DNA of 26,561 bases from a virus, in IMG/VR virus record IMGVR_UViG_3300021961_000537, positions 1 through 26,561 of that record; one strand, given 5' to 3'. This document shows positions 3,001 to 26,561 of this stretch, one piece after another; within the stretch, counting starts at the first letter, position 1; each line of letters begins with the position of its first letter. Made by a program: the position numbers and the translations under genes. The notes beneath the pieces were generated by a model, which made no database searches, had not been told where the DNA came from, and saw only the letters and a list, made by a program, of their open reading frames with translations.

Positions 3001-5912
3001 AAAGCATCTACTAGTAGACCATTTTTAAATCTTTCGGTAATACCATCGTCTGCAAAGAATTTAGCATCTTTCGCTTCTCTTTCTAACATGGAAAGAGAGG
3101 TATAATATTCTAAGTTTTTGATTCTCTTTTCAAGAGCGCTAATATCCCTCATTGTATATCTAGGATTCTCTACCTGAGAAACTTTAATACCCATGTCAGG
3201 TCTATTGTAAATTTTAGCAGCGTTAGATGCCAATGAAGGATAAGGAGGCATAATGAAAGTAGCAAGTGTCATCATTTGAACACTTTCTACAGCAGGTATT
3301 TTTACACTTTCAGACTGTGGTCCAGTGATTACACGGAACTCGCCTTTTGCATCTAGAACAACCCTTGCACCCTGTGCTAAGTAAGAATCCATATCTGTTT
3401 GGAATTGTTCGACCGGAACAGGGTTAGTTAAACCTGCGCCTTTGTCAATTATAGCTATAGAGCCTGGGTTAACAGTAGCAGCCGCAATAGCAGTTGTGAT
3501 TTCTCCTGCTGTGGGTTCTTCACTGGGGTTGCCCGCCGCAGCTATAGCAGCAGTGTTAGAAACATAAGGTCTAAAGTCAATAGCGTTTCTTAGATCATAC
3601 ACACCGTTTTTCTGAGAAGAATATACCGGAACTTCTTCTGTCTTGATTCCTGCGAGTCCTGTGTCATCTACAGGATAGGAATCAATACAAGCAAAAGTAG
3701 GACCGGACACTGTTCTGCTAAAGTAATCTAGATTAATTAACAAGTAAGAATAAGTAGATAAATCTAATGTACTACTTGCTTTTTTCTTAATGCTAGCAAA
3801 ACCGTAATAGTTATCTCGTTGACCATTGTCTATTCTAAATTGATTAGTAACATCAATTGCACCTGTTGTGTAATCAGAATTAGAAGATGCTGTAATACTT
3901 CTTATTTTAAATACATCTGAAACGCCTAAATTATATTCACCGGAAGTTCCGGATAAGTTAGTATTGGTGTCAATCTTTACATATTGATTTGTTATACAAG
4001 TTTTTGCTATAGGAGCAGTATTAGATACTATCGTTGTTAAGTAAGCTCTAAGGTTTAATCCTCCAGATGCAGCGCCGCCCAAGTTTATAGTAACTGTAGA
4101 AGAAGTAGTAGAAACTGTAGCTGATGTTAAATCAATGTGCTCGCCAGCTGATATATTATTAGTACCAACAACAATATCATCCTTTGAAACTAATACCATA
4201 CCTGCAGTTATTTCTGTAGGGGAAGGAGATGAGCTGAATGGGAAACTTTCATTACCTGAAACCGAAAGTGTTACTATACCATTAGATCCCAATTGTACGT
4301 CAAACTCTTTTGTGTAACTAAAAGAATAATCGTATGAAGGTGAGCTTCCTGTTTTTAAAGACTTAACAAAAGTCTTGGGAAGTTTCCATAAAAATCTATT
4401 AAAGTTGGACTCGTATACAAAAGCATTGCCGTCATCATTAAGAACTATGTCAGCAAATCCGTCAGCGTCAGTTTGATCGTAATAAACACTTCTTACGTTT
4501 TTGAATTCTCCGGACTCCATTTTAATATCATATAGATACATTCTATATTTAGCAGAAGCAGTACCTGCAGTTCCGGATTCAAGAACAATATGTCTAACTT
4601 TGGCTGTACCCACTCTGCTTCCAGTAACCGCATAAGTACCAGTGTCACTGTATTTTCCACCACTTACTCTGTCTTGTGCAGCAGAATATAATGTTACTGG
4701 ATTGCCGCCGTCTACGTCCCAAACACCACAAAATTCATCTACTTCTATATAGTTTCCATATGAAGTGGTAACAGTAGCATCAACACTTGTTATTGTATCT
4801 GTAGGTTTATCTACAGCTATTAACTGAGCAGCTTTTAATTCTCTCAAGTAACCTGCAACATTTGCTTTACCTGGTTCTACGAATACTGCCAGTTTAGTAG
4901 CATCGCCGCCGTTAGCTGCTGAAAACACGCCGCCATTTTCACCATCATTTAAGTGTTCTTTTAATGAAACAAGTAATCCATTTACAATGTAATTACCATT
5001 AGCTTCGTATGCTCTCTTAGCTATTTGATCGCTTAGTTGTCCTAAAGAATCTATTTTAGTTCTAGTCCTAATAATGTTACCGTACTGGAATTCAGCATAT
5101 GTAAAGAAATTATCAGGGATAGATACATTAAAAGCATAAGAAGCTAAGCTTGCTGTTACTTTATATCTGTCTGCACCGGGAGCATTAAAGTTATAAGTTC
5201 CTCTAGCAGGATCTAAAAGAGTATTGTCATCATTAGACTGTACAATAGATTCTGCAATAACAAACCCTATTTTTGCTCTGATTGCTGCACTGTAAGGATG
5301 TACATAAGTAGATATTTTTTCAGTTCTTAAAAACTGACCCTTAGCATATATGATGCCAGGAGAAAGCTGTATTTTAGTTGTAGATCCAAAATACCTATCA
5401 CCTATGGTAGAGCCTTCTCTTGCATTAACTTGAAAGGTTTTTCCTCGGTAATTGCCATTGCTAGTAACAGTTAAAATTTCGTCCGCTTGGAAATTTCTAG
5501 TAGCGCTATTTCCAAAAGAGGTGTATGCGAGATACAAAGTTTTCATGTTAGGAGCAGATGTGGTTAGACCAGATCTGACATCTACAATAGTAGCTACAAG
5601 TCCAGACTCTCCGGTTACTTCTTCTCCAATAAAGTTTACTAGCTGATTGTTATTAAGGGTAACGCCGTCATCATCTACGTCCTCAATTTTAACATAGTCT
5701 ACAAGAGAAATGCTTTCCTCACAGCCAGATATAATTGCACCTTCTTTTAATGTGAAGCTTCCAAGGTTCGATAACTGATCTTGCAAAGTGGTTTGCAGCT
5801 GGGTAAGCTCTCTGGCTTGTACTGCCACACCTGGTTTGAACAAGATCCTGTTATAGTTCTTTTCAGGATCAAAGTTATCAAAATACGGATCAATGTTTAA
5901 ATTAAGCGACAT
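1..5912 (-). CDS. Giant DUF4815-like virion/tail-fibre protein (3' end beyond window)
   Basis: The frame is open from an ATG at 5912 (good AGGAA Shine-Dalgarno, 11 bases after the gp8 stop) to the window edge, giving about 1970 residues with no stop. The N-terminus (NIDPYFDNFDPEKNYNRILF, then KPGVAVQARELTQLQT) matches the DUF4815-type start of large cyanophage structural proteins. In order I see: the DUF4815-like region (about 1-560); further structural sequence; a Pro/Glu-rich hinge (about 1085-1117); a Calx-beta-like domain (about 1118-1217, with DEGGTVSV and EGTETLVLTL motifs); a short Cys/Pro stretch; a Tyr/Thr/Trp-rich low-complexity region (about 1290-1390); a YYYYDAGMYGG segment leading to a conserved 'DPMAQTFTV' jelly-roll-like domain (about 1660-1840); and C-terminal GxGY repeats (about 1870-1960). 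It lies directly after gp8, where T4 has gp9/gp10, so it probably forms peripheral baseplate or fibre structure. The exact role is inferred. The length is a minimum. Confidence 0.85.
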   Translation of the reverse strand, partial: MSLNLNIDPYFDNFDPEKNYNRILFKPGVAVQARELTQLQTTLQDQLSNLGSFTLKEGAIISGCEESISLVDYVKIEDVDDDGVTLNNNQLVNFIGEEVTGESGLVATIVDVRSGLTTSAPNMKTLYLAYTSFGNSATRNFQADEILTVTSNGNYRGKTFQVNAREGSTIGDRYFGSTTKIQLSPGIIYAKGQFLRTEKISTYVHPYSAAIRAKIGFVIAESIVQSNDDNTLLDPARGTYNFNAPGADRYKVTASLASYAFNVSIPDNFFTYAEFQYGNIIRTRTKIDSLGQLSDQIAKRAYEANGNYIVNGLLVSLKEHLNDGENGGVFSAANGGDATKLAVFVEPGKANVAGYLRELKAAQLIAVDKPTDTITSVDATVTTSYGNYIEVDEFCGVWDVDGGNPVTLYSAAQDRVSGGKYSDTGTYAVTGSRVGTAKVRHIVLESGTAGTASAKYRMYLYDIKMESGEFKNVRSVYYDQTDADGFADIVLNDDGNAFVYESNFNRFLWKLPKTFVKSLKTGSSPSYDYSFSYTKEFDVQLGSNGIVTLSVSGNESFPFSSSPSPTEITAGMVLVSKDDIVVGTNNISAGEHIDLTSATVSTTSSTVTINLGGAASGGLNLRAYLTTIVSNTAPIAKTCITNQYVKIDTNTNLSGTSGEYNLGVSDVFKIRSITASSNSDYTTGAIDVTNQFRIDNGQRDNYYGFASIKKKASSTLDLSTYSYLLINLDYFSRTVSGPTFACIDSYPVDDTGLAGIKTEEVPVYSSQKNGVYDLRNAIDFRPYVSNTAAIAAAGNPSEEPTAGEITTAIAAATVNPGSIAIIDKGAGLTNPVPVEQFQTDMDSYLAQGARVVLDAKGEFRVITGPQSESVKIPAVESVQMMTLATFIMPPYPSLASNAAKIYNRPDMGIKVSQVENPRYTMRDISALEKRIKNLEYYTSLSMLEREAKDAKFFADDGITERFKNGLLVDAFRGHSVAAVNNPDFRAAIDVGKQELRSYFTDDTLDFKVIYTGDDQEGAQSKGVFHIPFQELVYAEQLQASKANSIVIELLYDNTPDPAKPIEVIKEEDPPVVIDDTGEEVEVEPEIIVDPEPVPVPIPPQPDPEPTPNPEEEDWVPPTPPPPVYRLIRSDSAVDEGGTVSVILEAIGSDPETTVGWTVTGISTSDLDSGSLSGTFTVPDNLTASFQIANDAYTEGTETLVLTLDSTDSLGFSAGASTSITINDTSTTPVASPDPDPTPTCISPYVLDSDQANCVPPACPGGYAWSASAQACERVSPPVVHYSGNMNIDPEEDRWHDTTYVEPTYNNKTGNYDQFNYDDAWNVTWDGWTQVNLDIQESTKSWEDQTGYSETFAGTEYGNAGWGENGYDYYEVANIYTTFTTWTAYEQTTSNKIETGYETGYSTYAGNLPEDIIVTVGEKTVNTTIVAKIRPVTINFVCSGLAPNAIHSVTAGGISKGSVTTDSNGNCQGSLNINEGEFNAGPVSIMVSGTNSYSSSSTASATFYGGDTVVSKRVEYDRIKAPQPAKKQVEGPIVVKDPVQIIGDPVEKRSWTVEDVRVDYISTYNPYGYGYYNSTPNVVSNNPGISIVTDTAIASAAAAGWSTQEVIDTLNNTALSYGTTSQGAVLSQSNNFDISTDTAITFEPIYTDLDIEVQIAEAELMMKYYYYDAGMYGGFCGYGDPMAQTFTVEGMVGGMYVSSVDLFFKSISKESDNHGITLELREVINGYPGPTVIPGGSVHKTRSDCNISTTASNGEVSFKATTFRFPTPVFLEADKEYCIVPIPDADDPNYKVWIAELGQNNVGTSRVISKQAASGILFTSANNRTWTAHQSEDLMFRINRCVFRTNRDYTITAKNENHDWMDFTGFSTGTGFTMGNYINGFDFTIVDGGSGYSSATVTIDAPPLGGVQATATATIVGEAITGITLTNPGSGYTSAPTVTIEGDGIDAEVTATLNRGRIVRNVSKYSTTTVL

Positions 5913-5923
5913 TTATTTTATTC

Positions 5924-7579
5924 CTAGAAGTTTACAATTACCTTAATAGTTTCAGCCTGATCTACTGACCTAGTTACCGGCGCACGGTTTTCAATGTATA
6001 TAACTTCTCCTGTTGCAATACTTACTTCAGGATTAGCGATACTATTTATATTAGCTACTACAACACTATTGCCTGTAGATGTATTTGTCCAGTTTCCATT
6101 GTCCAATGAAATTAGAGGAACGATGGGTAACAAATAAACTTGATAGGCAGCTGTTCCAGTATCATCAATTCTTATTTGTGATACAATAAACTCTCCGCCG
6201 TCTGGTGTGGTGATTATACTGTCGTACCCATTATCTGTGTTTAAGAAATCTGAAGTATCATCAGTATAAACTACAAATGCTGCAGTGGCAGTTCTACCAG
6301 TCCATATACCTGTTCCACCATACCGGCGAAAATTCTTCGCTAAACCTATCTGTCTAAAATCATTATCTAAAACTAAATCTTCGTTGTCCTTGTCATATAT
6401 TGTAGTTACAATACCCACAGTAGAAGAATAAAATCCTCTTACAACATTAGCACCGTGTCCTTCCACCGGAGAAACAATAGCTCTAGCTGCAAAATCTGTG
6501 CCTGTTCCTCCGACTTGTGTTATAGAAACATTAGCATATGTATACCCTGACCCAGCATTTGTAATATCTATAGAAGTTACTATACCGCCGACTACTACTG
6601 CATCAGCTGTAGCTCCAGTACCGTCGCCAGTAATTACAACGCTAACGTCATTTTGAGCGTACCCAGAACCTGGAGTAGTTATTACAACCCTGTCAAGCGT
6701 GCCTGGGATAGCGGCCGCTTCTACTGCTGCTTGTAAAGCTGGAAGTGAATCCGGTTCTCCTAGTGTAACAGTAGCCTCAGCCCCTGTACCGTCACCGACG
6801 AATTCTACAATAGCAAAAGAATATCCAGACCCCTGAGATGTAATGGTAATACTGTCTACTTCACCGCTACTATTAATAGTACAAGTAGCACCAGCATCAA
6901 CACCATCACCGTTAATAATAACTTCAGGTGCTGAAGTGTAACTACCACCAGCAGTAATAGTAAGACCGTCTACAACACCATTAACATCAAATTGCGGATT
7001 GCCTGTAAGTTTTCTAACAGGCATCCAGTTATCATCTAAAAATTTAGTTTGATCTGCTGCTGATATCTCACACATAAATTTCCATTTATAACCGTCTTGA
7101 TTGTCAGCGTCGTGTTCAAAAGGAATTGGTCCAGTGCCTTCAGGTTTGGTAGTGCTCAGTGAATTATTGTTATTATCTAAACAGAGGTATACACGCATAT
7201 CACTAGTAAGGACATAGAAGTTTGCATCTGCAAGATTTGTAGCTTCTGAATGAGCAGGATTATCAGAAGAATAAGCATCGTCATAAGGATCATATACAGT
7301 TTCCTGACTTACATCCCAGTCTATTCTTCTAATTAAATGACAAGTATCAGCAGAAGTCAGTCTTTGCATAAAAAGAATATTTCTTCGATATTGATTAATA
7401 TATGCGTTAGAATCTATACCAACTTCCGGCGAACTCTCATCAGCTAAACCGGTTTCTGGATTAATCCAAGAATCGGTTTTTCCGATAGTGTAGTAATAGT
7501 AGTCGTTGGCATTTTGAATATCCCTATGAAAGGATCTAGCCAGCTCTACTCTTCCTGATCTTGTCAATAAAAGTGACAT
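5924..7579 (-). CDS. 8: gp8 baseplate wedge protein, enlarged by GxGY repeats
   Basis: This 551-residue protein is recognised as T4 gp8. The N-terminal part carries the gp8 signatures YYTIGKTDSW (about 28-37), RRIDWDV (about 84-90) and DGYKWKFMCEI (about 162-172). The C-terminus GEVIYIENRAPVTRSVDQ closely parallels the end of T4 gp8 as I remember it (GEMIYMENRPPIIMAMDQ). T4 gp8 is about 334 residues; the extra length here is mainly residues about 204-375, a run of GxGY/GDGTGA beta repeats placed between the conserved halves. In T4, gp8 is a wedge subunit that binds gp7 and gp10. The start is ATG at 7579 with a TAAGGTA Shine-Dalgarno. It lies between a small structural gene and the giant protein in the same leftward operon. 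Confidence 0.87.
   Translation of the reverse strand: MSLLLTRSGRVELARSFHRDIQNANDYYYYTIGKTDSWINPETGLADESSPEVGIDSNAYINQYRRNILFMQRLTSADTCHLIRRIDWDVSQETVYDPYDDAYSSDNPAHSEATNLADANFYVLTSDMRVYLCLDNNNNSLSTTKPEGTGPIPFEHDADNQDGYKWKFMCEISAADQTKFLDDNWMPVRKLTGNPQFDVNGVVDGLTITAGGSYTSAPEVIINGDGVDAGATCTINSSGEVDSITITSQGSGYSFAIVEFVGDGTGAEATVTLGEPDSLPALQAAVEAAAIPGTLDRVVITTPGSGYAQNDVSVVITGDGTGATADAVVVGGIVTSIDITNAGSGYTYANVSITQVGGTGTDFAARAIVSPVEGHGANVVRGFYSSTVGIVTTIYDKDNEDLVLDNDFRQIGLAKNFRRYGGTGIWTGRTATAAFVVYTDDTSDFLNTDNGYDSIITTPDGGEFIVSQIRIDDTGTAAYQVYLLPIVPLISLDNGNWTNTSTGNSVVVANINSIANPEVSIATGEVIYIENRAPVTRSVDQAETIKVIVNF
6043..6050 (-). promoter_or_regulatory. Possible internal late promoter (TATAAATA) inside gp8
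   Basis: An exact TATAAATA box reads leftward within the last 130 bases of gp8, about 130 bases before the start of the giant gene. T4-type late promoters need little beyond this box, so it could give extra transcripts of the giant gene. In AT-rich coding sequence it could equally be chance. Confidence 0.3.
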
Positions 7580-17833: not shown

Positions 17834-18025
17834 TTACTTTTCGGTTGATTCTTCAGTAACTTCTTTTGTTTCTATTTTGCCCCATTTACCAATTGGACAT
17901 GATGCCCATTTTAGTCTAACTTTTGCTGGCATAAAGCATCCACACTTTTTACAAATACTGAGAGTTTTGTTTAGATGTTCACAAGAATTACAGGTGGTCG
18001 CTCGTTCTCTCATTTCAGGACTCAT
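17834..18025 (-). CDS. Small zinc-ribbon-like protein
   Basis: This is a 63-residue protein with a Cys pattern 'CNSCEHLNKTLSICKKCGCF' plus a further Cys in 'WASCPIGKWG', giving two CxxC knuckles able to bind one zinc. Small proteins with this 'RATTCNSC…CKKCGCFMPAK' pattern are common in T4-like marine phages, function unknown. I chose ATG 18025, which has an AGGAG Shine-Dalgarno and overlaps the upstream gene's stop by 11 bases, over an earlier in-frame start at 18067 inside that gene. It is the last gene before the gp48 promoter. Confidence 0.75.
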   Translation of the reverse strand: MSPEMRERATTCNSCEHLNKTLSICKKCGCFMPAKVRLKWASCPIGKWGKIETKEVTEESTEK

Positions 18026-19037
18026 TTTTAGCTTTCTCCTTTTTCTTATCAATGATACCACGACCACATGAAAGAGGTCTATACAATTCTCTAAGCTCTA
18101 ATGCTTTATCGTAATATTGTTTTAAACGATCTTGATAGTCATCCATAAACTCAAAAACAATACCCGACCAAGGACAGGCTAGAATATTGGCGATTGCTTT
18201 TTTCGCCGCTTCTTTACCTTCACGTTTTTGTAAATAAGTAATGATTCTGTGAATGGGTTGATAGACTCCAGCACCTGCGCTATCCCATCTAGAAATATCA
18301 TACACTGTTTTACCTAAACAAGCTCCAGTGATAATCATTTCAGAAGCAGTCGTACTATAAACAGTTTCACAATTTTCTAGTAACTTAGCCCCAGACGCAT
18401 TTCTAGGAAGTACCTTATGCCACCCACATCTAGAGGAAACCATCCTAATAGCATCTGTATTGGTGAGAGGGTGTGGCTTAACAACAATGTCTTGTTCTAC
18501 TGATAACAACCTTTCTAATTCTGTGGTGTCTATTAAATCTAAAAGATTGTGTCCAGGCAAAAACACAATATGTTTTTTGTCTTGATGTTCTTCTGGCAAT
18601 TCTTCTAACACATATTTGTCACTAAATGATGCAACAAATTTATCAAAAAGCTCTTCACCTTTTTTACCAGAGTCTATTTTTGAAGCAAAATCTATTAAAC
18701 GACAATTGACTTCTCTGGACTGTGTAGTTACCCATATACCACCACCTGCAAATTCAGTGTAGGTGAATTCACAAAAATCCGTTGGTTGTAATGAGCTAAC
18801 ATCATAGGTGATTGGCCAAGGACATAGGTTTCTTACTACCTCCTCGTTTTCTACTGCCCAATCATTTCTTATTGATCTTGTGGCGTAAGGTCCAATTTTC
18901 ATCCTTTCATTGGACCTATCCGACATTCTATTTGATGCCCACCTAGGTTCTGCTTTGCCCCCTTCCTTGTCGGGCTCTTTTTTTAAATCTTTAGGTATTG
19001 GCTGTAATTGGTCATACGCGGTGTTGATAAATTTCAT
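18015..19037 (-). CDS. KPHP-motif protein resembling GT-B polysaccharide enzymes
   Basis: This is a 340-residue protein with no signal peptide or membrane segment. Residues 156-161 'HIVFLPGHN' begin a Rossmann-like half; 'DIVVKPHPLTN' (183-193) has the KPHP motif, and 'LLENCETVYSTTASEMIITG' (219-238) followed by 'CLGKTVYDIS' matches the 'ad.v.s..S.....a...gkpV' pattern. These features occur in the C-terminal lobe of capsule-polysaccharide (KpsC/KpsS-like) and CDP-glycerol glycerophosphotransferase-type enzymes. The N-terminal 90 residues are unlike them. A glycan-transferring role is therefore an inference from motifs only. I chose ATG 19037 (GGAT-type Shine-Dalgarno, 28 bases after the previous stop) over a start at 19166 that overlaps the preceding gene. 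It lies between fibre-type genes and gp48. Confidence 0.65.
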   Translation of the reverse strand: MKFINTAYDQLQPIPKDLKKEPDKEGGKAEPRWASNRMSDRSNERMKIGPYATRSIRNDWAVENEEVVRNLCPWPITYDVSSLQPTDFCEFTYTEFAGGGIWVTTQSREVNCRLIDFASKIDSGKKGEELFDKFVASFSDKYVLEELPEEHQDKKHIVFLPGHNLLDLIDTTELERLLSVEQDIVVKPHPLTNTDAIRMVSSRCGWHKVLPRNASGAKLLENCETVYSTTASEMIITGACLGKTVYDISRWDSAGAGVYQPIHRIITYLQKREGKEAAKKAIANILACPWSGIVFEFMDDYQDRLKQYYDKALELRELYRPLSCGRGIIDKKKEKAKNES

Positions 19038-19065
19038 GTTATATCCATTATAAAAAATATATGTA

Positions 19066-19569
19066 TTATATAGTAAAGAAAGTAAACTCGTCAATATCCC
19101 AAATATTTTGTGAAGTGAAGTCTCTCCAAGCCTGTGCTTTAGCATCAAGTTCTGCAAGATCAGCACTGGGAGTCAATCCCAATCTAATCTGACTTTGTAC
19201 CTGCATTATCTTTGCATCTAATTCTGCAAATGCGTCTTTTCTTCTTTTTCTTAAAGTCTTTAAACGATTTTCATTTCTAGCAGGACGATTGCCTATAGGA
19301 ACTTCTACTAACTCATATTCCCTCATAAATTTTTCAAAATTGGGCATATAAACTGCACTTGTAGGAGCAATGCTATGAGTTTCAGTATTTCTCAAGTTAA
19401 TAGTGCCTAGAGGAGGGGCTTCAACACAAACATAGTTTGTTCCTGCTAAATGAAAGTCCGTAATAACATCCGGCAATACAGTATTAGATAAACGATCTCT
19501 GAGAGTAACCTCAAAGATAGGAAATTCTAATACTTCATTAGTTTCCTGATTAATTCTAGCGTATAACAT
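19066..19569 (-). CDS. Putative tail-fibre-associated/assembly protein
   Basis: This is a 167-residue protein with a GGAGAC Shine-Dalgarno. The N-terminal half looks beta-rich ('MLYARINQETNEVLEFPIFE'); the C-terminal third is a charged helix 'RKRRKDAFAELDAKIMQVQS' followed by 'ADLAELDAKAQAWRDF'. A beta N-terminus plus a C-terminal helical arm ending in W-containing repeats is the general shape of tail-fibre assembly (XkdW/Gp38-type) proteins, but I see no diagnostic motif. Its place just after the Thr/Asn/Cys-rich fibre-like protein supports a chaperone or attachment role. This is inferred. Confidence 0.6.
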   Translation of the reverse strand: MLYARINQETNEVLEFPIFEVTLRDRLSNTVLPDVITDFHLAGTNYVCVEAPPLGTINLRNTETHSIAPTSAVYMPNFEKFMREYELVEVPIGNRPARNENRLKTLRKRRKDAFAELDAKIMQVQSQIRLGLTPSADLAELDAKAQAWRDFTSQNIWDIDEFTFFTI

Positions 19570-19582
19570 TATTGTGTCTCCA

Positions 19583-20968
19583 TTATTCGGTTATCCAGCT
19601 AGTCGTTCTGCTGGTAGTAGTGTTAGTTATTTGTGATGTATTCGTCAACCAAGTTGTGGTATCCGAAGTATTCCATTCAGTGCTTGTATTTCTAGACTGA
19701 GTATTTACAGTATTAAAGGTACTTGTAGTATTCCAATATGTAGTATAAGTTCCACCCCATGTTGTCGTAGTATTTCTACTAGCTGACCCAGTAATCGCAT
19801 AGGTATTATACGTAGTTATAATCCACTGTGTAGTTGTGTTGTAACAGCTAGTTACCGGTGTTGTTCCGCCGGCTACCGGAGTTCCGGGTACACTCCAATT
19901 AGTTGTCCACTCAGTAGTATAATTATATGAAATAAAACTTGTAACATATGTAGAAGTTTGATGGCAAGTATTCCGTGAACCGTAACTAGCAATATAATCC
20001 TGACAAGTGTTTCTGGATAGTGTGCAGGCATATGATGAAGTAGTGAACGTGGTATTATACGAGTATGTTGTATTATTTCCCTGACACAATTCTATACAAT
20101 CATAACACTCAGTTTCTGGTTTCGAGGTGTACCATGTAGTATTTGTCGTATTATAGGCATAAATTACACAACAACCGTTGGTAGAACATTTTGGATCAAC
20201 ACTGTTATAACCGTAGTCTGAACATTGTAATGCCCAGGTCTCAGCATCTACACAATAGACCCCGTAATAATAACCATATTCCTCACACGTAGTGTTTACT
20301 ACACTTTGAGTCACAGGACAGCTTATATATGTGTAACTAGGTGCACCACACGACTGCAAAGAACATCCAGGTGATGCACTATCTTCATCGTAAAGACCGC
20401 TACAGTTATAATATCTACATCCAGAAACAGGTTGGGTATAACTGTAAGGAGTAATTGTTGTGTTTGTACTAACAGAGCTAGATACTGTACTACAGGTTGT
20501 ATTATAGTTAGTGGCATAGCAAGTCTGGGCCCAATTAGTTACGGTTGTGTTGTAACAAGTATCAAAGTAAGTTCTACTTATACTATCAGGAACAGGACCG
20601 GAGCTGGTTGTTCGTGAGGTCGTTCTAGATGTATTGACAGATGGTGTAGTATAAGAGGTTACATTATTTACAACACATTCTACTGTATTTCTACTGTAAG
20701 CAGGATATGAAGTTGCAACTCCCCATGTGGTAATTGGCCAAGTAGTTGTAGTGTTTCTAGTAGCAGTACCGTCTGTTGTTCGACTAGTCTGAAATGTTGT
20801 AGACGTATTTGCATTTACCCCCCAAACTGTAGAGGTTAATCTATTTGTTAACCAAGAAGTTATCTGGGAAGTATTGGTGTTAAAATTTGTCGTGGTGTTG
20901 GTTGCAAAACTAGTATTTCTATTAGTTACTTGCCCACCTTGTAAAAATAATTTTCTAGTCCAACTCAT
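19583..20968 (-). CDS. Thr/Asn/Ser-rich, Cys-core fibre-like protein of unusual composition
   Basis: This 461-residue protein has an AAGGG Shine-Dalgarno 7 bases before the ATG. Roughly half of the residues are Thr, Asn or Ser. Short words recur: 'SRNTTTTW' near residues 69 and 394, 'SRNT' elsewhere, 'NTSQIT' near both ends, and 'TTSW' at the C-terminus. The two ends are nearly Cys-free, while residues about 96-375 hold 22 cysteines, many next to Tyr and Gly. Such composition suggests a repetitive beta structure, possibly a trimeric fibre or adhesin with a disulfide-rich or metal-binding core. I recognise no family. The start 'MSWTRKLFLQGG' and position between a coiled-coil fibre gene and a possible fibre-assembly gene point to a virion surface role. 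Confidence 0.75.
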   Translation of the reverse strand: MSWTRKLFLQGGQVTNRNTSFATNTTTNFNTNTSQITSWLTNRLTSTVWGVNANTSTTFQTSRTTDGTATRNTTTTWPITTWGVATSYPAYSRNTVECVVNNVTSYTTPSVNTSRTTSRTTSSGPVPDSISRTYFDTCYNTTVTNWAQTCYATNYNTTCSTVSSSVSTNTTITPYSYTQPVSGCRYYNCSGLYDEDSASPGCSLQSCGAPSYTYISCPVTQSVVNTTCEEYGYYYGVYCVDAETWALQCSDYGYNSVDPKCSTNGCCVIYAYNTTNTTWYTSKPETECYDCIELCQGNNTTYSYNTTFTTSSYACTLSRNTCQDYIASYGSRNTCHQTSTYVTSFISYNYTTEWTTNWSVPGTPVAGGTTPVTSCYNTTTQWIITTYNTYAITGSASRNTTTTWGGTYTTYWNTTSTFNTVNTQSRNTSTEWNTSDTTTWLTNTSQITNTTTSRTTSWITE

Positions 20969-20977
20969 TATATGCCC

Positions 20978-21649
20978 TTATGAATAACTACGCCAAGACT
21001 GAACACCCATCCAAGTTGAACCGTTATCTACTGAGTCTAAAATAATAAGAGTTTTGCCTGTACCGGTAATAATAGAACCACCTCTATTAAAGGTAGTGGT
21101 TGTCGGGAAAGTAATAGTACCTGCAGATGAGTTTTCTATTACAAGATATACTGTATTTACGGAACCACTTACAAGTCCTGAAACTGTAAAAGTAGTATTT
21201 CCTGTAAGCCTACAAGTAACTGTGTCACCACTATTTAAATCAATATTATTTGTACCTGTAATATTACCTAAAGCCTGTACTTTTCCTCTGATAATAGTAT
21301 CGACAAGATTTGCCCCCTGTAAATCAGCAGTAGTAGTAATGTCATCTGTAGCAGATATAATTTCTGCACTTAACGTACCGGTAGCATTTCCATCGGCAGC
21401 ATCTAACTTTCCGGATACATCTGTTTGTAAAGTGCCAATGTCTGTTTGTAAAGTGCCAATGTCACCTTCATTTGTAGTAACCCTACCTTCTAAGGTAGAA
21501 ATATCTCCCTCATTTGTAGTAACTCTACCTTCTAAGGTAGTAATATCCGTAGCAGCAGAGTCTACTCTGCTGTCTAGATCGGTAAAATTACCATCTAATT
21601 CTGTTATTGTTAAAGCTCTAGGTAAAGAACTTCTTAATGTGATCGCCAT
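20978..21649 (-). CDS. Coiled-coil tail-fibre-like protein
   Basis: This is a 223-residue protein. Residues about 25-85 are a coiled coil of exact repeats: a 14-residue unit ('DITTLEGRVTTNEG', then 'DISTLEGRVTTNEG') followed by a 7-residue unit ('DIGTLQT' twice). The C-terminal 130 residues are beta-rich with a 'LNSGDTVTCRLTGNTTFTVSG' region and a conserved end 'GSTWMGVQSW', typical of phage fibre tips. I chose ATG 21649; the reading frame extends 11 codons further to a TTG but the conserved start 'MAITLRSSLPRALTITELDG' begins here. It is the first gene of the leftward block, 42 bases after a late promoter. Confidence 0.82.
   Translation of the reverse strand: MAITLRSSLPRALTITELDGNFTDLDSRVDSAATDITTLEGRVTTNEGDISTLEGRVTTNEGDIGTLQTDIGTLQTDVSGKLDAADGNATGTLSAEIISATDDITTTADLQGANLVDTIIRGKVQALGNITGTNNIDLNSGDTVTCRLTGNTTFTVSGLVSGSVNTVYLVIENSSAGTITFPTTTTFNRGGSIITGTGKTLIILDSVDNGSTWMGVQSWRSYS
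21420..21461. repeat. 21-bp perfect tandem duplication in the fibre gene
   Basis: Two identical 21-base units (21420-21440 and 21441-21461) encode the two DIGTLQT heptads. Just beside them a 42-base imperfect repeat (about 21469-21552) encodes the 14-residue unit, again a multiple of seven codons. This is consistent with coiled-coil lengthening by in-frame slippage. Confidence 0.85.
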
Positions 21650-21667
21650 TTGTCTATTAATCCCGTT

Positions 21668-21679
21668 AATAAATAAATA
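21668..21679 (+). promoter_or_regulatory. Possible weak late promoter for the gp4 operon
   Basis: Two overlapping AATAAATA boxes (21668-21675 and 21672-21679), one mismatch from TATAAATA, lie about 25-30 bases before the gp4 ATG. This is the only late-like sequence I see for the rightward genes here. The gap also holds the exact box for the opposite strand. Confidence 0.3.
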
Positions 21680-21690
21680 CAAGTTTATTC

Positions 21691-21698
21691 TATTTATA
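21691..21698 (-). promoter_or_regulatory. Late promoter for the leftward fibre genes
   Basis: Exact TATAAATA on the minus strand, in the 55-base divergent gap between gp4 and the fibre gene, ending 41 bases before the fibre ATG. The location between divergent operons makes function likely. Confidence 0.72.
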
Positions 21699-21704
21699 AC
21701 ACCT

Positions 21705-22151
21705 ATGACATATACAAAAGAATTATATCAAGGAAGGTTCGTTCCCAATAATCCATCTAAGTATAAAGGGAATGTTACCAACATTATTTATCGCTCTGGG
21801 TATGAGTTAAAATTTATGAATTGGTGTGATAAAAATCCAGATGTACTAGAATGGGGGTCTGAAGAAGTTGTTATACCTTATCGTTCTCCTTTAGACAATA
21901 GAATACATAGGTATTTTGTAGATTTTTATGTGAAAGTTATAAGTAATAATAAGATTAAACGATATTTGGTTGAAGTCAAACCATATCGTTTCACACAAGA
22001 ACCAAAGAGACCGAAACGCAAAACTAAAAGGTTTATAAATGAAGTTATGCAATGGGGTGTAAATTTAGCAAAATGGGAAGCCGCAAAATCTTTTTGTGAT
22101 GCAAGAGAATGGGAATTTAAATTGATAACCGAAAAAGAATTAGGTATATGA
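21705..22151 (+). CDS. 4: gp4 head completion protein
   Basis: This is a 148-residue protein (T4 gp4 about 150). The family signature is plain: 'YQGRFVPNNPSKYKGNVTNI' then 'IYRSGYELKFMNWCDKNPDV', 'LEWGSEEVVIPY', 'RYFVDFYVK', and the basic 'KPKRPKRKTKRFINEV' helix, ending 'WEFKLITEKELG'. In T4 it acts on filled heads before tail joining and looks nuclease-like, with a PD-(D/E)XK-type core. I chose ATG 21705 because homology starts there; the same frame is open much further upstream only as antisense of the fibre gene. The stop overlaps the next start (ATGA), and there is no clear Shine-Dalgarno before gp4 itself. Confidence 0.93.
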   Translation: MTYTKELYQGRFVPNNPSKYKGNVTNIIYRSGYELKFMNWCDKNPDVLEWGSEEVVIPYRSPLDNRIHRYFVDFYVKVISNNKIKRYLVEVKPYRFTQEPKRPKRKTKRFINEVMQWGVNLAKWEAAKSFCDAREWEFKLITEKELGI

Positions 22152-23116
22152 ATCTTGAAAGAGCTGTAATTGAAGTAGCCGGCGGGTGTAATTACTCCTG
22201 CGCTATGTGTCCTCATTCAGATCCCGGCCGTGGAAAAGACTGGACTCGTATCATGCCATTAGATATGTTTGAGAATATACTTGACCAAATAACTCCCAAG
22301 TACGGAACACCGATTATCAATCTTGAGGGTAGCGGTGAGCCTACTATGAACAAACGACTGCCTGAGTATGTAGAGGCAGTGACAAGACGTGGTCTCAAAT
22401 CCTATATGTACTCCAATGGAAGTTTTCTACGTGGCGACTTTATGAAAGATGTTGTAGATGCTGGATTGGGATTTATGCGTTTTAGTTTCATTGGGTATGA
22501 TAGAAGAACCTACAAAGAATGGATGAGCATGGATAACTTTGACTTAGTAATGGATAATGCTATTAAGTTAAAACAATACATTGCAGAATCAGGTAGCGAG
22601 TGTGAAGTAAGTTCCTATCATCTCATTCTTAACAAAAATCAAATTGATTTTGAAGTTGAGGAATACAGGCGCAATGTCATTAATAAAATAGGAACCATTG
22701 GCTACATATGGAAAATGCACAATTGGAGCGGCAATTATAAACCTTCGTATGGTAGAGAAGCTCCTGTAAAACGTAGCTGCGGCAGGCCTTTCGCTCCTGA
22801 AATAACCATACGGGCGGGTGGTAATAACGGGCAAACAGGCGCAGTAACTCCTTGTTGTCAAACATTAGGACCCCCTAATGAAGCCAAAAGTGTATTAGGA
22901 CACTTTTCAGAACAAACACTAGAAGAAATATATTTCGGTGAAAAGTATGAGGAGCTTCGTAAATTACACAAAGAAGGTCGGTTTGATGAAATAGACTATT
23001 GTAAGAACTGTGACTTCTTATATGAAAACCCGGAAGTTCTTGTGTGGAGCAATGCAGCAAATGCATCTATAGACCACATGATAGGCACTAAATTTTCTTT
23101 AAAGGACTATAAATGA
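22148..23116 (+). CDS. Radical SAM enzyme with SPASM-type C-terminus
   Basis: This is a 322-residue protein. Residues 14-21 'CNYSCAMC' are the CxxxCxxC motif that holds the radical-SAM [4Fe-4S] cluster. 'GSGEPTM' (about 60-67) corresponds to the GGE-type SAM-binding strand. The C-terminal part has Cys at about 211 ('SCGRPF'), 236/237 ('VTPCCQT'), 285 and 288 ('CKNC') with the 'LGHFSEQTLEEIY' spacer, a SPASM-like arrangement for auxiliary clusters. SPASM enzymes commonly modify peptides or proteins, but others act on small molecules, so the substrate is unknown. It begins with an ATGA overlap on gp4 and ends with an ATGA overlap on the next gene, so it is expressed with late structural genes. 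Confidence 0.9.
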   Translation: MNLERAVIEVAGGCNYSCAMCPHSDPGRGKDWTRIMPLDMFENILDQITPKYGTPIINLEGSGEPTMNKRLPEYVEAVTRRGLKSYMYSNGSFLRGDFMKDVVDAGLGFMRFSFIGYDRRTYKEWMSMDNFDLVMDNAIKLKQYIAESGSECEVSSYHLILNKNQIDFEVEEYRRNVINKIGTIGYIWKMHNWSGNYKPSYGREAPVKRSCGRPFAPEITIRAGGNNGQTGAVTPCCQTLGPPNEAKSVLGHFSEQTLEEIYFGEKYEELRKLHKEGRFDEIDYCKNCDFLYENPEVLVWSNAANASIDHMIGTKFSLKDYK

Positions 23117-23842: not shown

Positions 23843-24415
23843 ATGGCTAATCCATTTGAAAACATAAGAGCACAAGCAGGCGACCAGGACAGATCGTTTA
23901 ACTGGTATATGCGTGCCGTCAAAAAAATGGGCAGTGACCTAAAAACCTATAATGCTGTTAGTAGAACTGATATAGGTGAGTTTGAAAGTACCATCGAACC
24001 TGGCAATATGTATATGTTTGTATACGATCCGAAGTTAAAAGACTCACTGCCTTATTACGATACTTTTCCTTTGGTTATGCCTTTCAATACTACTAATAAT
24101 GGTTTTATAGGACTTAACTTACATTATCTAGCTCCTTTAGCTAGAGCGGCCTTATTAGGAAAACTGTTAGACTATACCGACAGTGATATTACGTCAACAA
24201 GTAAATTTCAAATTAGTTGGAGTGTATTAAATAATTTCTCTAGGTTTCCTCAGGTTAAACCTTCTGTTAAAAAATATATAACATCTAATGTGAATTCTAG
24301 ATTATTAAAAATAGACCCCGAACATTGGAAGGCGGCAATATTTTTGCCGACTCAGAATTTTGTTGGTGCTAGTACAAGAACAGTCCACGAAACCAGTAAT
24401 AGGATGATGCGTTAA
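23843..24415 (+). CDS. Conserved T4-like phage structural protein, unassigned
   Basis: This is a 190-residue protein: 'RSFNWYMRAVKKMGSDLKTY' near the start, 'EPGNMYMFVYDPKLKDSLPY' (about 52-71), then 'FPLVMPF' and 'GFIGLNLHYLAPLARAALLG' (about 87-106). The 'MYMF.YDPK…LPYYD.FPLV…GFLGLNLHYL' pattern is familiar from structural proteins of T4-like and jumbo myoviruses, but I cannot tie it to a T4 gene with confidence. The position before a tube-like gene and gp26 suggests a tail or baseplate part. Its stop overlaps the next start (TAATG). Confidence 0.75.
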   Translation: MANPFENIRAQAGDQDRSFNWYMRAVKKMGSDLKTYNAVSRTDIGEFESTIEPGNMYMFVYDPKLKDSLPYYDTFPLVMPFNTTNNGFIGLNLHYLAPLARAALLGKLLDYTDSDITSTSKFQISWSVLNNFSRFPQVKPSVKKYITSNVNSRLLKIDPEHWKAAIFLPTQNFVGASTRTVHETSNRMMR

Positions 24416-24948
24416 TGGCAGAATCATACAACAAGTTTGAGAATTTTTTATCCACAGTCAGGACACAATTTCTACCTAGAAGTGAACGGTTTGAAGTTGC
24501 TTTTTTTGGACCTGAAGGTGTAGATAAAGTATTTGAAAAAAGTCTTTCACTATATTGTGAAGAAGCACAAATCCCAGGGTTAGCGGCTACTAATGTTCCT
24601 ATAAAAATAGGACCATGGACTGAACACAGAACACAAAACGTAGAATTCATAACAACAGACATGACCTTTAGTTTTATTGTAGATCAGAACTGGAAAGGTA
24701 GGCAGTATTTTGATACCTGGATAGGATTGACCGCAGACTTTACATCTAAAGAAGTAGGATTCTATGATTTAACAAAAGGTAAAATAGAAATCAAGTCCTT
24801 AGACTTAAATGACCAAGTTTTGGCAGAATGGACTTTACATGACGTTCTGCCCAAAGTAATAAATTTAGTACCAGTTGCTTGGGGAAACATAGGCGTGATG
24901 AGAATGAATGTCACGGTGTCTGCAAGACGATGGGAAAAAACAATATAA
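24415..24948 (+). CDS. Tail-tube-fold protein, likely gp54-like tube initiator
   Basis: This is a 177-residue protein of the gp19-like tube fold: 'RSERFEVAFFGPEGVDKVFE' (about 22-41), 'LYCEEAQIPG' (about 46-55), 'TTDMTFSFIVDQNWKGRQYF' and 'FDTWIG' are the standard strand-loop-helix elements, followed by 'KGKIEIKSLD' and 'GNIGVMRMNVTVSARRW'. The main tube protein gp19 normally lies beside the sheath gene gp18, so this tube-like copy beside gp26 is more likely gp54, the initiator at the baseplate, although it is shorter than T4 gp54 (320). gp19 itself remains possible. The start overlaps the previous stop (TAATG). Confidence 0.75.
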   Translation: MAESYNKFENFLSTVRTQFLPRSERFEVAFFGPEGVDKVFEKSLSLYCEEAQIPGLAATNVPIKIGPWTEHRTQNVEFITTDMTFSFIVDQNWKGRQYFDTWIGLTADFTSKEVGFYDLTKGKIEIKSLDLNDQVLAEWTLHDVLPKVINLVPVAWGNIGVMRMNVTVSARRWEKTI

Positions 24949-24961
24949 TTAGGAGATTGTT

Positions 24962-25654
24962 ATGGCGTTACCGAAAATTGATGTGCCTACATTTATGGTA
25001 GAAGTTCCTGGAATGAAAGGATCCGTAAAGTGTAGACCCTTCTTAGTTAAAGAAGAAAAGTTATTGTTACTTGCAAATGAATCAGATGTATTTAAAGACA
25101 AAATAAATGCCTGCATACAAGTTTTACAGAACTGTGTATATGACAAAATTGATATTGATGAATTACCGATGTATCAATTACAGTGGTTGTTTTTAAAAAT
25201 AAAAGCAAAGTCAGTGGGCAATGTTATTAATTTTAATTTAACCTGTGGTGAGTGTGAGGGCAAGCGTCCTTACGACATGGCATTAGATGATTTTGAAATT
25301 ATAGGTGAGGTAAATTCTCCCACAAAATTATTTAAAGTTAATGATGAAGTTAGTATTAGATTTAAATATCCTTCTGCTAAGGTTCAATCTTACGCAGACG
25401 AATTATCAGATGTTGAAATGTTAATCAATAGTATTGATAAGGTATATTCGGGTGAAGAGGCATTAGATCCTTCACAAGAAACCATTGAAGAAATGACACA
25501 GTTTGTAGAGAGTTTACCCTTAACTACTGTGGAAGAAGTAGAGGAATACTTGTTATCCATGCCTTATTTGGTACACAAGTATGAATATGATTGTAAAAAA
25601 TGTAATAAACATAACTTTGTAGCTATTAGCGGGTACGAAAGTTTTTTCGACTAA
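24962..25654 (+). CDS. 26: gp26 baseplate/tail assembly protein (0-frame product)
   Basis: This is a 230-residue protein with an AGGAG Shine-Dalgarno. It has the T4_baseplate (gp26) pattern: 'GSVKCRPFLVKEEKLLLLA' (about 20-38), 'NACIQVLQNCVYDKIDIDEL' (about 48-67), 'YQLQWLFLKIKAKSVG', then 'LTCGEC' and near the C-terminus 'YDCKKCN', giving a CxxC pair that could bind a metal. In T4, gp26 acts in hub assembly. The gene ends 'GYESFFD' with a T TTT TTC heptamer two codons before the stop, and a -1 frame ORF continues; so this may be the upstream half of a G/GT-type chaperone pair. It lies between a tube-like gene and a tape-measure-position gene. Confidence 0.85.
   Translation: MALPKIDVPTFMVEVPGMKGSVKCRPFLVKEEKLLLLANESDVFKDKINACIQVLQNCVYDKIDIDELPMYQLQWLFLKIKAKSVGNVINFNLTCGECEGKRPYDMALDDFEIIGEVNSPTKLFKVNDEVSIRFKYPSAKVQSYADELSDVEMLINSIDKVYSGEEALDPSQETIEEMTQFVESLPLTTVEEVEEYLLSMPYLVHKYEYDCKKCNKHNFVAISGYESFFD
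25642..25648 (+). promoter_or_regulatory. Putative -1 ribosomal frameshift site, T TTT TTC
   Basis: In the gp26 frame the codons read AGT TTT TTC GAC TAA. The heptamer T TTT TTC matches X XXY YYZ with X=Y=T, Z=C. A -1 slip continues at CGA (25648) into a 58-codon open frame. A weak hairpin (TTCTC 25659-25663 with GAGAA 25675-25679) lies about 10 bases downstream. Confidence 0.6.
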
Positions 25655-25824
25655 CTCTTTCTCAGGATACATTAGAGAATTTTTATAGAACAAATTTTCT
25701 AATGATGCAAGAACATCATTATAGTTTGACAGAATTGGAAAACATGATACCTTGGGAAAGAGAAGTTTATATAGGAATGCTTGTAACTCATTTAAAGAAA
25801 AAGGCCGAGAATAAGAAAAAATGA
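25648..25824 (+). CDS. -1 frame extension of gp26 (gp51-position/gpT-like domain)
   Basis: This is a 58-codon frame, read after a -1 slip, beginning 'RLTLSQDTLENFYRTNFLMM' and ending 'THLKKKAENKKK'. The core 'HHYSLTELENMIPWEREVYI' resembles the short downstream domain of tail assembly chaperones and matches small marine T4-like proteins. Fusion to gp26 would give about 287 residues. An independent start is poor: the first ATG (25702) leaves only 40 residues and has no Shine-Dalgarno, while the open frame runs back into gp26. The stop TGA overlaps the ATG of the next gene. If not made by frameshift, a non-ATG start would be needed. Confidence 0.65.
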   Translation, partial: RLTLSQDTLENFYRTNFLMMQEHHYSLTELENMIPWEREVYIGMLVTHLKKKAENKKK

Positions 25825-26561
25825 TTAGAGTAGAAGGCAGAAACATATCGGATCCAAATTTCAGTGGGTCTAATGTTAGAGACATGGGTACTGGAAGGCT
25901 TAGTAGCGAAATTGCTGAAAAGTTATCTAAAAGCCTAAGAGCTAGCATGGAACAATCATCTAGTAGAGATTTCAAGACTACTAGAATTTCTGCCGCCACC
26001 GCATCTTTCGGTAAAGGTTTGGGCGAGAATACTCTAGAACTTCAGAAACTAATTTCAAATCAAACGGAAGAGTTTACTAAAAACTTTAACGAATTAATAG
26101 ACTCCTTTAAGAAAAACGATCCAACAACAGTTCTAAAAAGTATTGAAAAAACTTTAAAGACATTAGACGAAGATACTGCCAAACAGCTTGAAGAAAAATT
26201 AAATTTAAAAGAAATAAAAAAGAGTTTAGTTGGCGGCGCTACTATTAAAGAAAAATTTAATAAGTTCATGGGTGCAGATTCTGATAAAGGCCCCATAGAA
26301 GGAATCAAACAAGTATTCGCTGAACCAGAAAGATTGTTTGGTGCCAAGAGAGGAGTCTTAGGAACAGGGTTGTTTTCAGGCGGTGAAGAAGGCATAGACA
26401 GACAAGCTGCTCGTCTAATGGGCGCAGACAATGTAAAAGATCAAGCCAGCAATTTATCTGAAATAAGTCTAAGTGAAAACAATAAAGATTCTAAAAAAGA
26501 AAAAGGCAAAAAAGAAAAAGGCAAAAAAGATTCTAGCCCTAACTCAGGCATTGACAGAAAT
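25821..26561 (+). CDS. Start of tape-measure/gp29-position protein (partial)
   Basis: The gene starts with an ATGA overlap on the frameshift frame and is open to the window edge (247 residues). The sequence is helical, charged and repetitive: 'EFTKNFNELIDSFKKNDPTT' (about 78-97), 'LKTLDEDTAKQLEEKLNLKE' and a Lys-rich 'KKEKGKKEKGKKD' near the end, with an Ala/Gly patch between. It follows a chaperone-like pair, as tape measure genes do in tailed phages. T4 has gp29 as tape measure near gp26/gp51, but I see no sequence match to it by eye, so the name is inferred from position. Confidence 0.6.
   Translation, partial: MIRVEGRNISDPNFSGSNVRDMGTGRLSSEIAEKLSKSLRASMEQSSSRDFKTTRISAATASFGKGLGENTLELQKLISNQTEEFTKNFNELIDSFKKNDPTTVLKSIEKTLKTLDEDTAKQLEEKLNLKEIKKSLVGGATIKEKFNKFMGADSDKGPIEGIKQVFAEPERLFGAKRGVLGTGLFSGGEEGIDRQAARLMGADNVKDQASNLSEISLSENNKDSKKEKGKKEKGKKDSSPNSGIDRN

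Follow-up and report, generated by a model that had tools for sequence, protein, structure and literature searches.

The closest described relatives of the locus analyzed here are tail assembly chaperones with a short and a long form. In phage lambda, gpG is the short form, and a -1 shift of frame shortly before its gene ends adds a minor long form, gpGT; T4 has long been listed as an exception to chaperone frameshifting (PMC5009743). The tail assembly chaperone genes of T4-like phages were identified by Vladimirov, Gautam & Davidson (2022; Virology 566:9), and papers citing that study describe poly-T -1 slippery sequences within their TAC-N genes (PMC12846349, from 2025) as well as some T4-like phages carrying a short gene plus a longer fusion gene with no frameshift (PRFect; PMC10885494). 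IS elements employ the motif U_UUU_UUC, which ranks among the more efficient ones in Escherichia coli (PMC4066793). An earlier note on this DNA proposed a programmed -1 frameshift at a T4-type gp26 and regarded such frameshifting as undescribed. The 2022 study and PMC12846349 contradict the latter point; the proposed gp26-gp51 frameshift is very probably right but not new in kind.

We analyzed a viral DNA stretch of 26,561 nucleotides (IMG/VR record IMGVR_UViG_3300021961_000537; hereafter the window). Gene 26 (24962-25654, + strand) encodes a 230-aa gp26 that matched the Pfam family T4_baseplate (E 2.9e-49) and PHROG 150, "baseplate hub" (E 2.6e-52). The -1 frame at its end (25648-25824, +) encodes a 58-aa peptide, RLTLSQ...ENKKK, that matched PHROG 634, "baseplate hub assembly catalyst" (gp51; E 1.2e-23), and was also recovered by tblastn. 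By these profiles, the window holds both a T4_baseplate-family gp26 and, after it, a gp51 domain, here read as a putative short chaperone form (TAC-N, G-like) and its candidate extension (TAC-C, T-like). A weaker match linked the -1 peptide to PHROG 150 as well, in its C-terminal part (E 1.8e-6), which indicates that some members of the family carry the two domains fused in a single chain. In G/GT-type loci the chaperone lies between tail tube and tape-measure genes; here a tail tube-like protein is encoded upstream (24415-24948, +; PHROG 45, E 1e-17). The downstream gene (25821-26561, +) runs off the window; its position makes it a candidate for a tape-measure or other tail gene. Its truncated sequence had no confident family match among Pfam and PHROG profiles, and in some relatives the genes downstream of the chaperone matched tape-measure profiles weakly.

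Other genes of the window were also inspected. A radical SAM protein with a SPASM domain (22148-23116, +; Pfam E 2e-12 and 2e-9) lies among the structural genes. The adjacent gene (21600-22148, +) carries a TnsA-like endonuclease N-terminal domain (E 3e-22), as found in T4-type head completion nucleases and ordinary for this group. On the opposite strand, a 461-aa ORF without a Pfam match (19583-20968) is very rich in Asn/Thr/Ser/Trp repeats such as RNTTTTW and TSWLTN and is possibly a fibre or adhesin, and a 383-aa ORF (18015-19166) that Pfam did not match at E 0.01 is one of the genes lying between the tail and baseplate clusters.

The earlier note placed a slippery heptamer, T_TTT_TTC, at 25642-25648 in the gp26 frame, and codon phase bears this out. 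The terminal codons of gp26 are AGT (25640), TTT (25643), TTC (25646), GAC (25649), and TAA (25652-25654). The heptamer therefore lies close to the stop, as claimed, but the stated distance of two codons is slightly imprecise, as a single sense codon (GAC) intervenes. The note's reading of the -1 frame stands: it is open for 58 codons from 25648 to TGA (25822-25824), a stop that shares ATGA with the following ORF's ATG at 25821, and it lacks a good start of its own. The nearest upstream stop in this frame is six codons ahead of the junction, and from that stop across the junction no ATG, GTG, or TTG occurs before codon +18/+19. This first start codon falls inside the gp51 domain and has no Shine-Dalgarno (SD) sequence. 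The listed coding sequences of the window were also examined for X XXY YYZ heptamers in frame and no more than 11 codons from a stop; apart from the gp26 site, the radical SAM gene alone had one, T TTA AAG.

To survey relatives, each half was queried separately by tblastn against annotated phages, giving 597 records for gp26 and 562 for gp51. Where both halves were listed in a record, the gp26 match ended and the gp51 match began at the same base, that is, in -1 phase (e.g. P-TIM68 at 6612, S-CAM3 at 5196, Bellamy at 6663, and S-RIM44 at 5994). Nine annotated phages with this adjacent layout carried T TTT TTC, and the heptamer ranged from phages of Synechococcus to those of Pelagibacter, Stenotrophomonas, Aeromonas, Acidovorax, and Vibrio, and to Rhizobium phage LG08. 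Rhizobium phage I1_18 has TTT TTA, followed by a stop nine codons later. A single-sequence gp26 scan of IMG/VR returned no confirmed relatives; a scan of the same collection with an alignment of the gp51 peptide alone, which takes no account of the heptamer, returned 80 viral loci.

T TTT TTN stood exactly at the junction in 90 of 90 cases: these 80 loci, the nine annotated phages, and the window itself. The alignment across T4-like phages suggested in the earlier note thus found heptamer and -1 frame conserved in codon sense, and the lambda-type G/GT layout it described, with an in-phase heptamer just before the short-gene stop followed by an open -1 frame, recurred at every locus. The second codon was TTC in 71, TTT in nine, TTA in eight, and TTG in two. 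As the A and G variants turn the second residue into Leu while keeping the slippery bases, the bases are conserved where the amino acid is not. Given codon usage in 81 representatives of less than 80% mutual identity, and disregarding shared ancestry, the probability that the codon ahead of TTT always ends in T was log10 P = -18.5, and that the first Phe codon is always TTT, log10 P = -14.3. Chance occurrence of the heptamer was rejected: among 18,946 codon pairs at other positions in the homologues' upstream frame, only 13 had in-frame T TTT TTN.

T4-type phages provided a natural control. A scan with T4 gp26 retrieved close T4 relatives only, after which ten annotated phages with separate genes 26 and 51 (T4 and nine others) were chosen. 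In all ten, gene 26 ends without T TTT TTN, and several retained Phe-Phe coded as TTC TTT or TTC TTC. Rhizobium phage LG08, in which the layout is adjacent, reads GAT TTT TTC and has a gp51-like -1 frame. As the heptamer accompanies the adjacent layout and is absent where the genes are separate, it tracks the need for a -1 product. T4 gp51 (249 aa) matched T4_baseplate over residues 1-201, PHROG 150 over 3-248, and PHROG 634 over 147-246. It is thus an in-frame long form in one chain, and T4 gp26 is the short form. Both T4 proteins are homologous to those of the window and T4 gp51 equals the long form, but T4 encodes them in two separate, divergently oriented genes without the heptamer. The study that identified the T4-like chaperone genes reportedly found frameshifting retained in several T4-like groups, with T4 using genes 26 and 51. 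Within Straboviridae we observed both states: the frameshift arrangement is kept in Aeromonas phage 65 and Vibrio phage ValKK3, and separate genes occur in T4 and in members of Krischvirus, Twarogvirinae, Gualtarvirus, and Tulanevirus.

The surroundings of the slip site carry selection beyond coding in the family, both as an SD-like element and as downstream folding. Affinity for the 16S anti-SD sequence peaked one to two codons upstream (z -7.6 and -7.9 against synonymous resampling) and fell to background beyond about three codons. Perfect GAGGG occurred in 20 representatives and GGAGG in 13 (overlapping sets), ending 9-10 nt ahead of the heptamer. Downstream, 45-nt windows near the slip site showed a folding excess (z about -6 against synonymous shuffles) that was absent at codons 10 and 15. 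A downstream RNA structure shared across the family was sought and not found, the structures varying by lineage. In the window, the site of the relatives' GGAGGG element holds a weak SD-like stretch, GCGGGT (25629-25634, +), about 8 nt upstream of the heptamer, with a duplex energy of -4.6 kcal/mol versus -3.0 under synonymous resampling. A possible stimulatory stem-loop in the minimum free energy fold (25670-25704, +) has a 13-bp stem (25670-25682 with 25692-25704) and a 9-nt loop, and starts 21 nt after the heptamer, farther than usual. With so weak an SD-like match and so distant a stem, the window's own stimulators are uncertain. The family arrangement resembles E. coli dnaX-type signals, in that many homologues pair an SD-like element about 10 nt upstream with downstream folding, but it differs in having a poly-T heptamer rather than A_AAA_AAG, no shared structure, and, in the window, a weak SD.

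An AlphaFold2 model of gp26 from a 64-sequence alignment reached a pLDDT of 94, and no solved structure for gp26 was found by sequence. Comparison by VIA-align placed the HK97 tail assembly chaperone (2ob9) at the top of the solved structures (Z 7.7, 83 of 107 residues), with the runner-up at Z 3.1; a Foldseek search of the PDB by itself found no significant match and placed 2ob9 only at rank 17. Falling under Z 8, the 2ob9 match is moderate evidence for a chaperone fold in the model. Its usefulness comes from the gap to the next structure and from its agreement with the genetics. The match covers gp26 residues 1-85, the N-terminal third of the protein only, at 11% identity.

The same observations bear on other readings of the junction. 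Were gp51 a separate small protein, translated by re-initiation or coupling from an internal start codon of the -1 frame, the fusion would not be made; public records do annotate it as its own gene (in S-PM2 from an ATG three codons past the junction, in Mosig from an internal start), and an ATG stands at codon +19 in many homologues. However, initiation at +19 would remove the conserved first third of the domain. The earlier note had considered homologues with their own ATG and SD as the case that would speak for separate proteins, and no consistent start of this kind occurs near the junction. Separate translation also leaves unexplained both the invariant heptamer and its loss in T4-type phages with a one-chain long form, and we consider it very unlikely.

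Every homologue carries six or seven T, from which RNA polymerase slippage could give a mixed mRNA population and hence the fusion. Runs of six T are short for such slippage, and the fixed positions of the SD-like element and of the downstream folding, together with the codon phase, point to the ribosome, making polymerase slippage extremely unlikely. Another idea sees the heptamer as a side effect, with Phe-Phe conserved in the protein and the genome rich in A+T. It draws on the conservation of this motif and on TTT being the common Phe codon (622 of 843). Yet TTT preceded by T was found in 81 of 81 representatives, and the TT persists where the second codon becomes Leu. Phages of Stenotrophomonas (DLP6) and Acidovorax (ACP17) keep the heptamer though their nearby codons mostly end in G or C. 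The T4-type phages that retain Phe-Phe in other codons, without the heptamer, contradict this idea, which was rejected with next to no probability left to it.

The frameshift signal in gp26 is, on comparative grounds, almost certainly real. The comparison extends to its conservation, to the homology of both domains, and to the in-frame long form of T4-type phages. Taken as a whole, the model in which gp26 and the -1 gp51 domain form a tail assembly chaperone pair made by programmed -1 frameshifting is very probably correct; the fusion to a chaperone-like domain proposed in the earlier note gains support from this comparative evidence and from the HK97-like fold. The conserved junction heptamer, the T4-type control, and the HK97 chaperone fold of the model together argue that gp26/gp26-51 is the predicted equivalent of lambda G/GT. 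Lambda has a -1 frameshift close to the end of the short gene and a minor long form, and the sequence of the window predicts the same. The two differ in that no sequence similarity between them has been established and that gp26, at 230 aa, is the longer protein and continues past its HK97-like N-terminal 85 residues. Similarly, the window shares with the chaperones of Vladimirov et al. the short/long architecture and poly-T -1 signals, as described in papers citing that work, but represents a divergent marine member that is new.

We infer both the occurrence and efficiency of frameshifting and the chaperone mechanism. Most ribosomes would stop at the TAA at 25652 and release the 230-aa short form. 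A minority would slip back one base on T_TTT_TTC, where tRNA-Phe would re-pair from TTT TTC to TTT TTT, and would read 58 more codons to give the long form, gp26 fused to gp51, of about 287 aa. If lambda gpG/gpGT is a guide, numerous short copies and a few long ones may then coat the tape-measure protein, with the C-terminal domain of the long form recruiting tube subunits. In the predicted fusion, the junction reads FF-R; trypsin cleaves at this arginine, and the corresponding Glu-C peptide is SFFRLTLSQDTLE.

The gp51 domain is missed in the public records of DSL-LC03 and S-WAM2, and in those of Mosig and S-PM2 it starts at arbitrary internal codons. The mis-annotated record spans, as listed, are 776-1676 (L005), 794-1686 (L006), 1558-1692 (L003), and 1510-1683 (L002). 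For the gp51 domain in public phage records, a joined frameshift CDS is the correct annotation.

The stimulator pattern is the least explored part of the finding: a literature search, with the full text of Vladimirov et al. (2022) outside its scope, found no report of SD-like or downstream stimulators. We see roughly even chances that the T4-like chaperone frameshift is tuned by a dnaX-like stimulator pair, GGAGGG 9-10 nt upstream and lineage-specific stems downstream, and that the T4 lineage lost the heptamer when it swapped recoding for two genes, 26 and 51. The part of this reading that concerns the two genes is already published in outline. More broadly, a large marine T4-like group would display the lambda-style recoding of tail chaperones, and the T4 exception is explained by two separate genes that supply the two chaperone forms.
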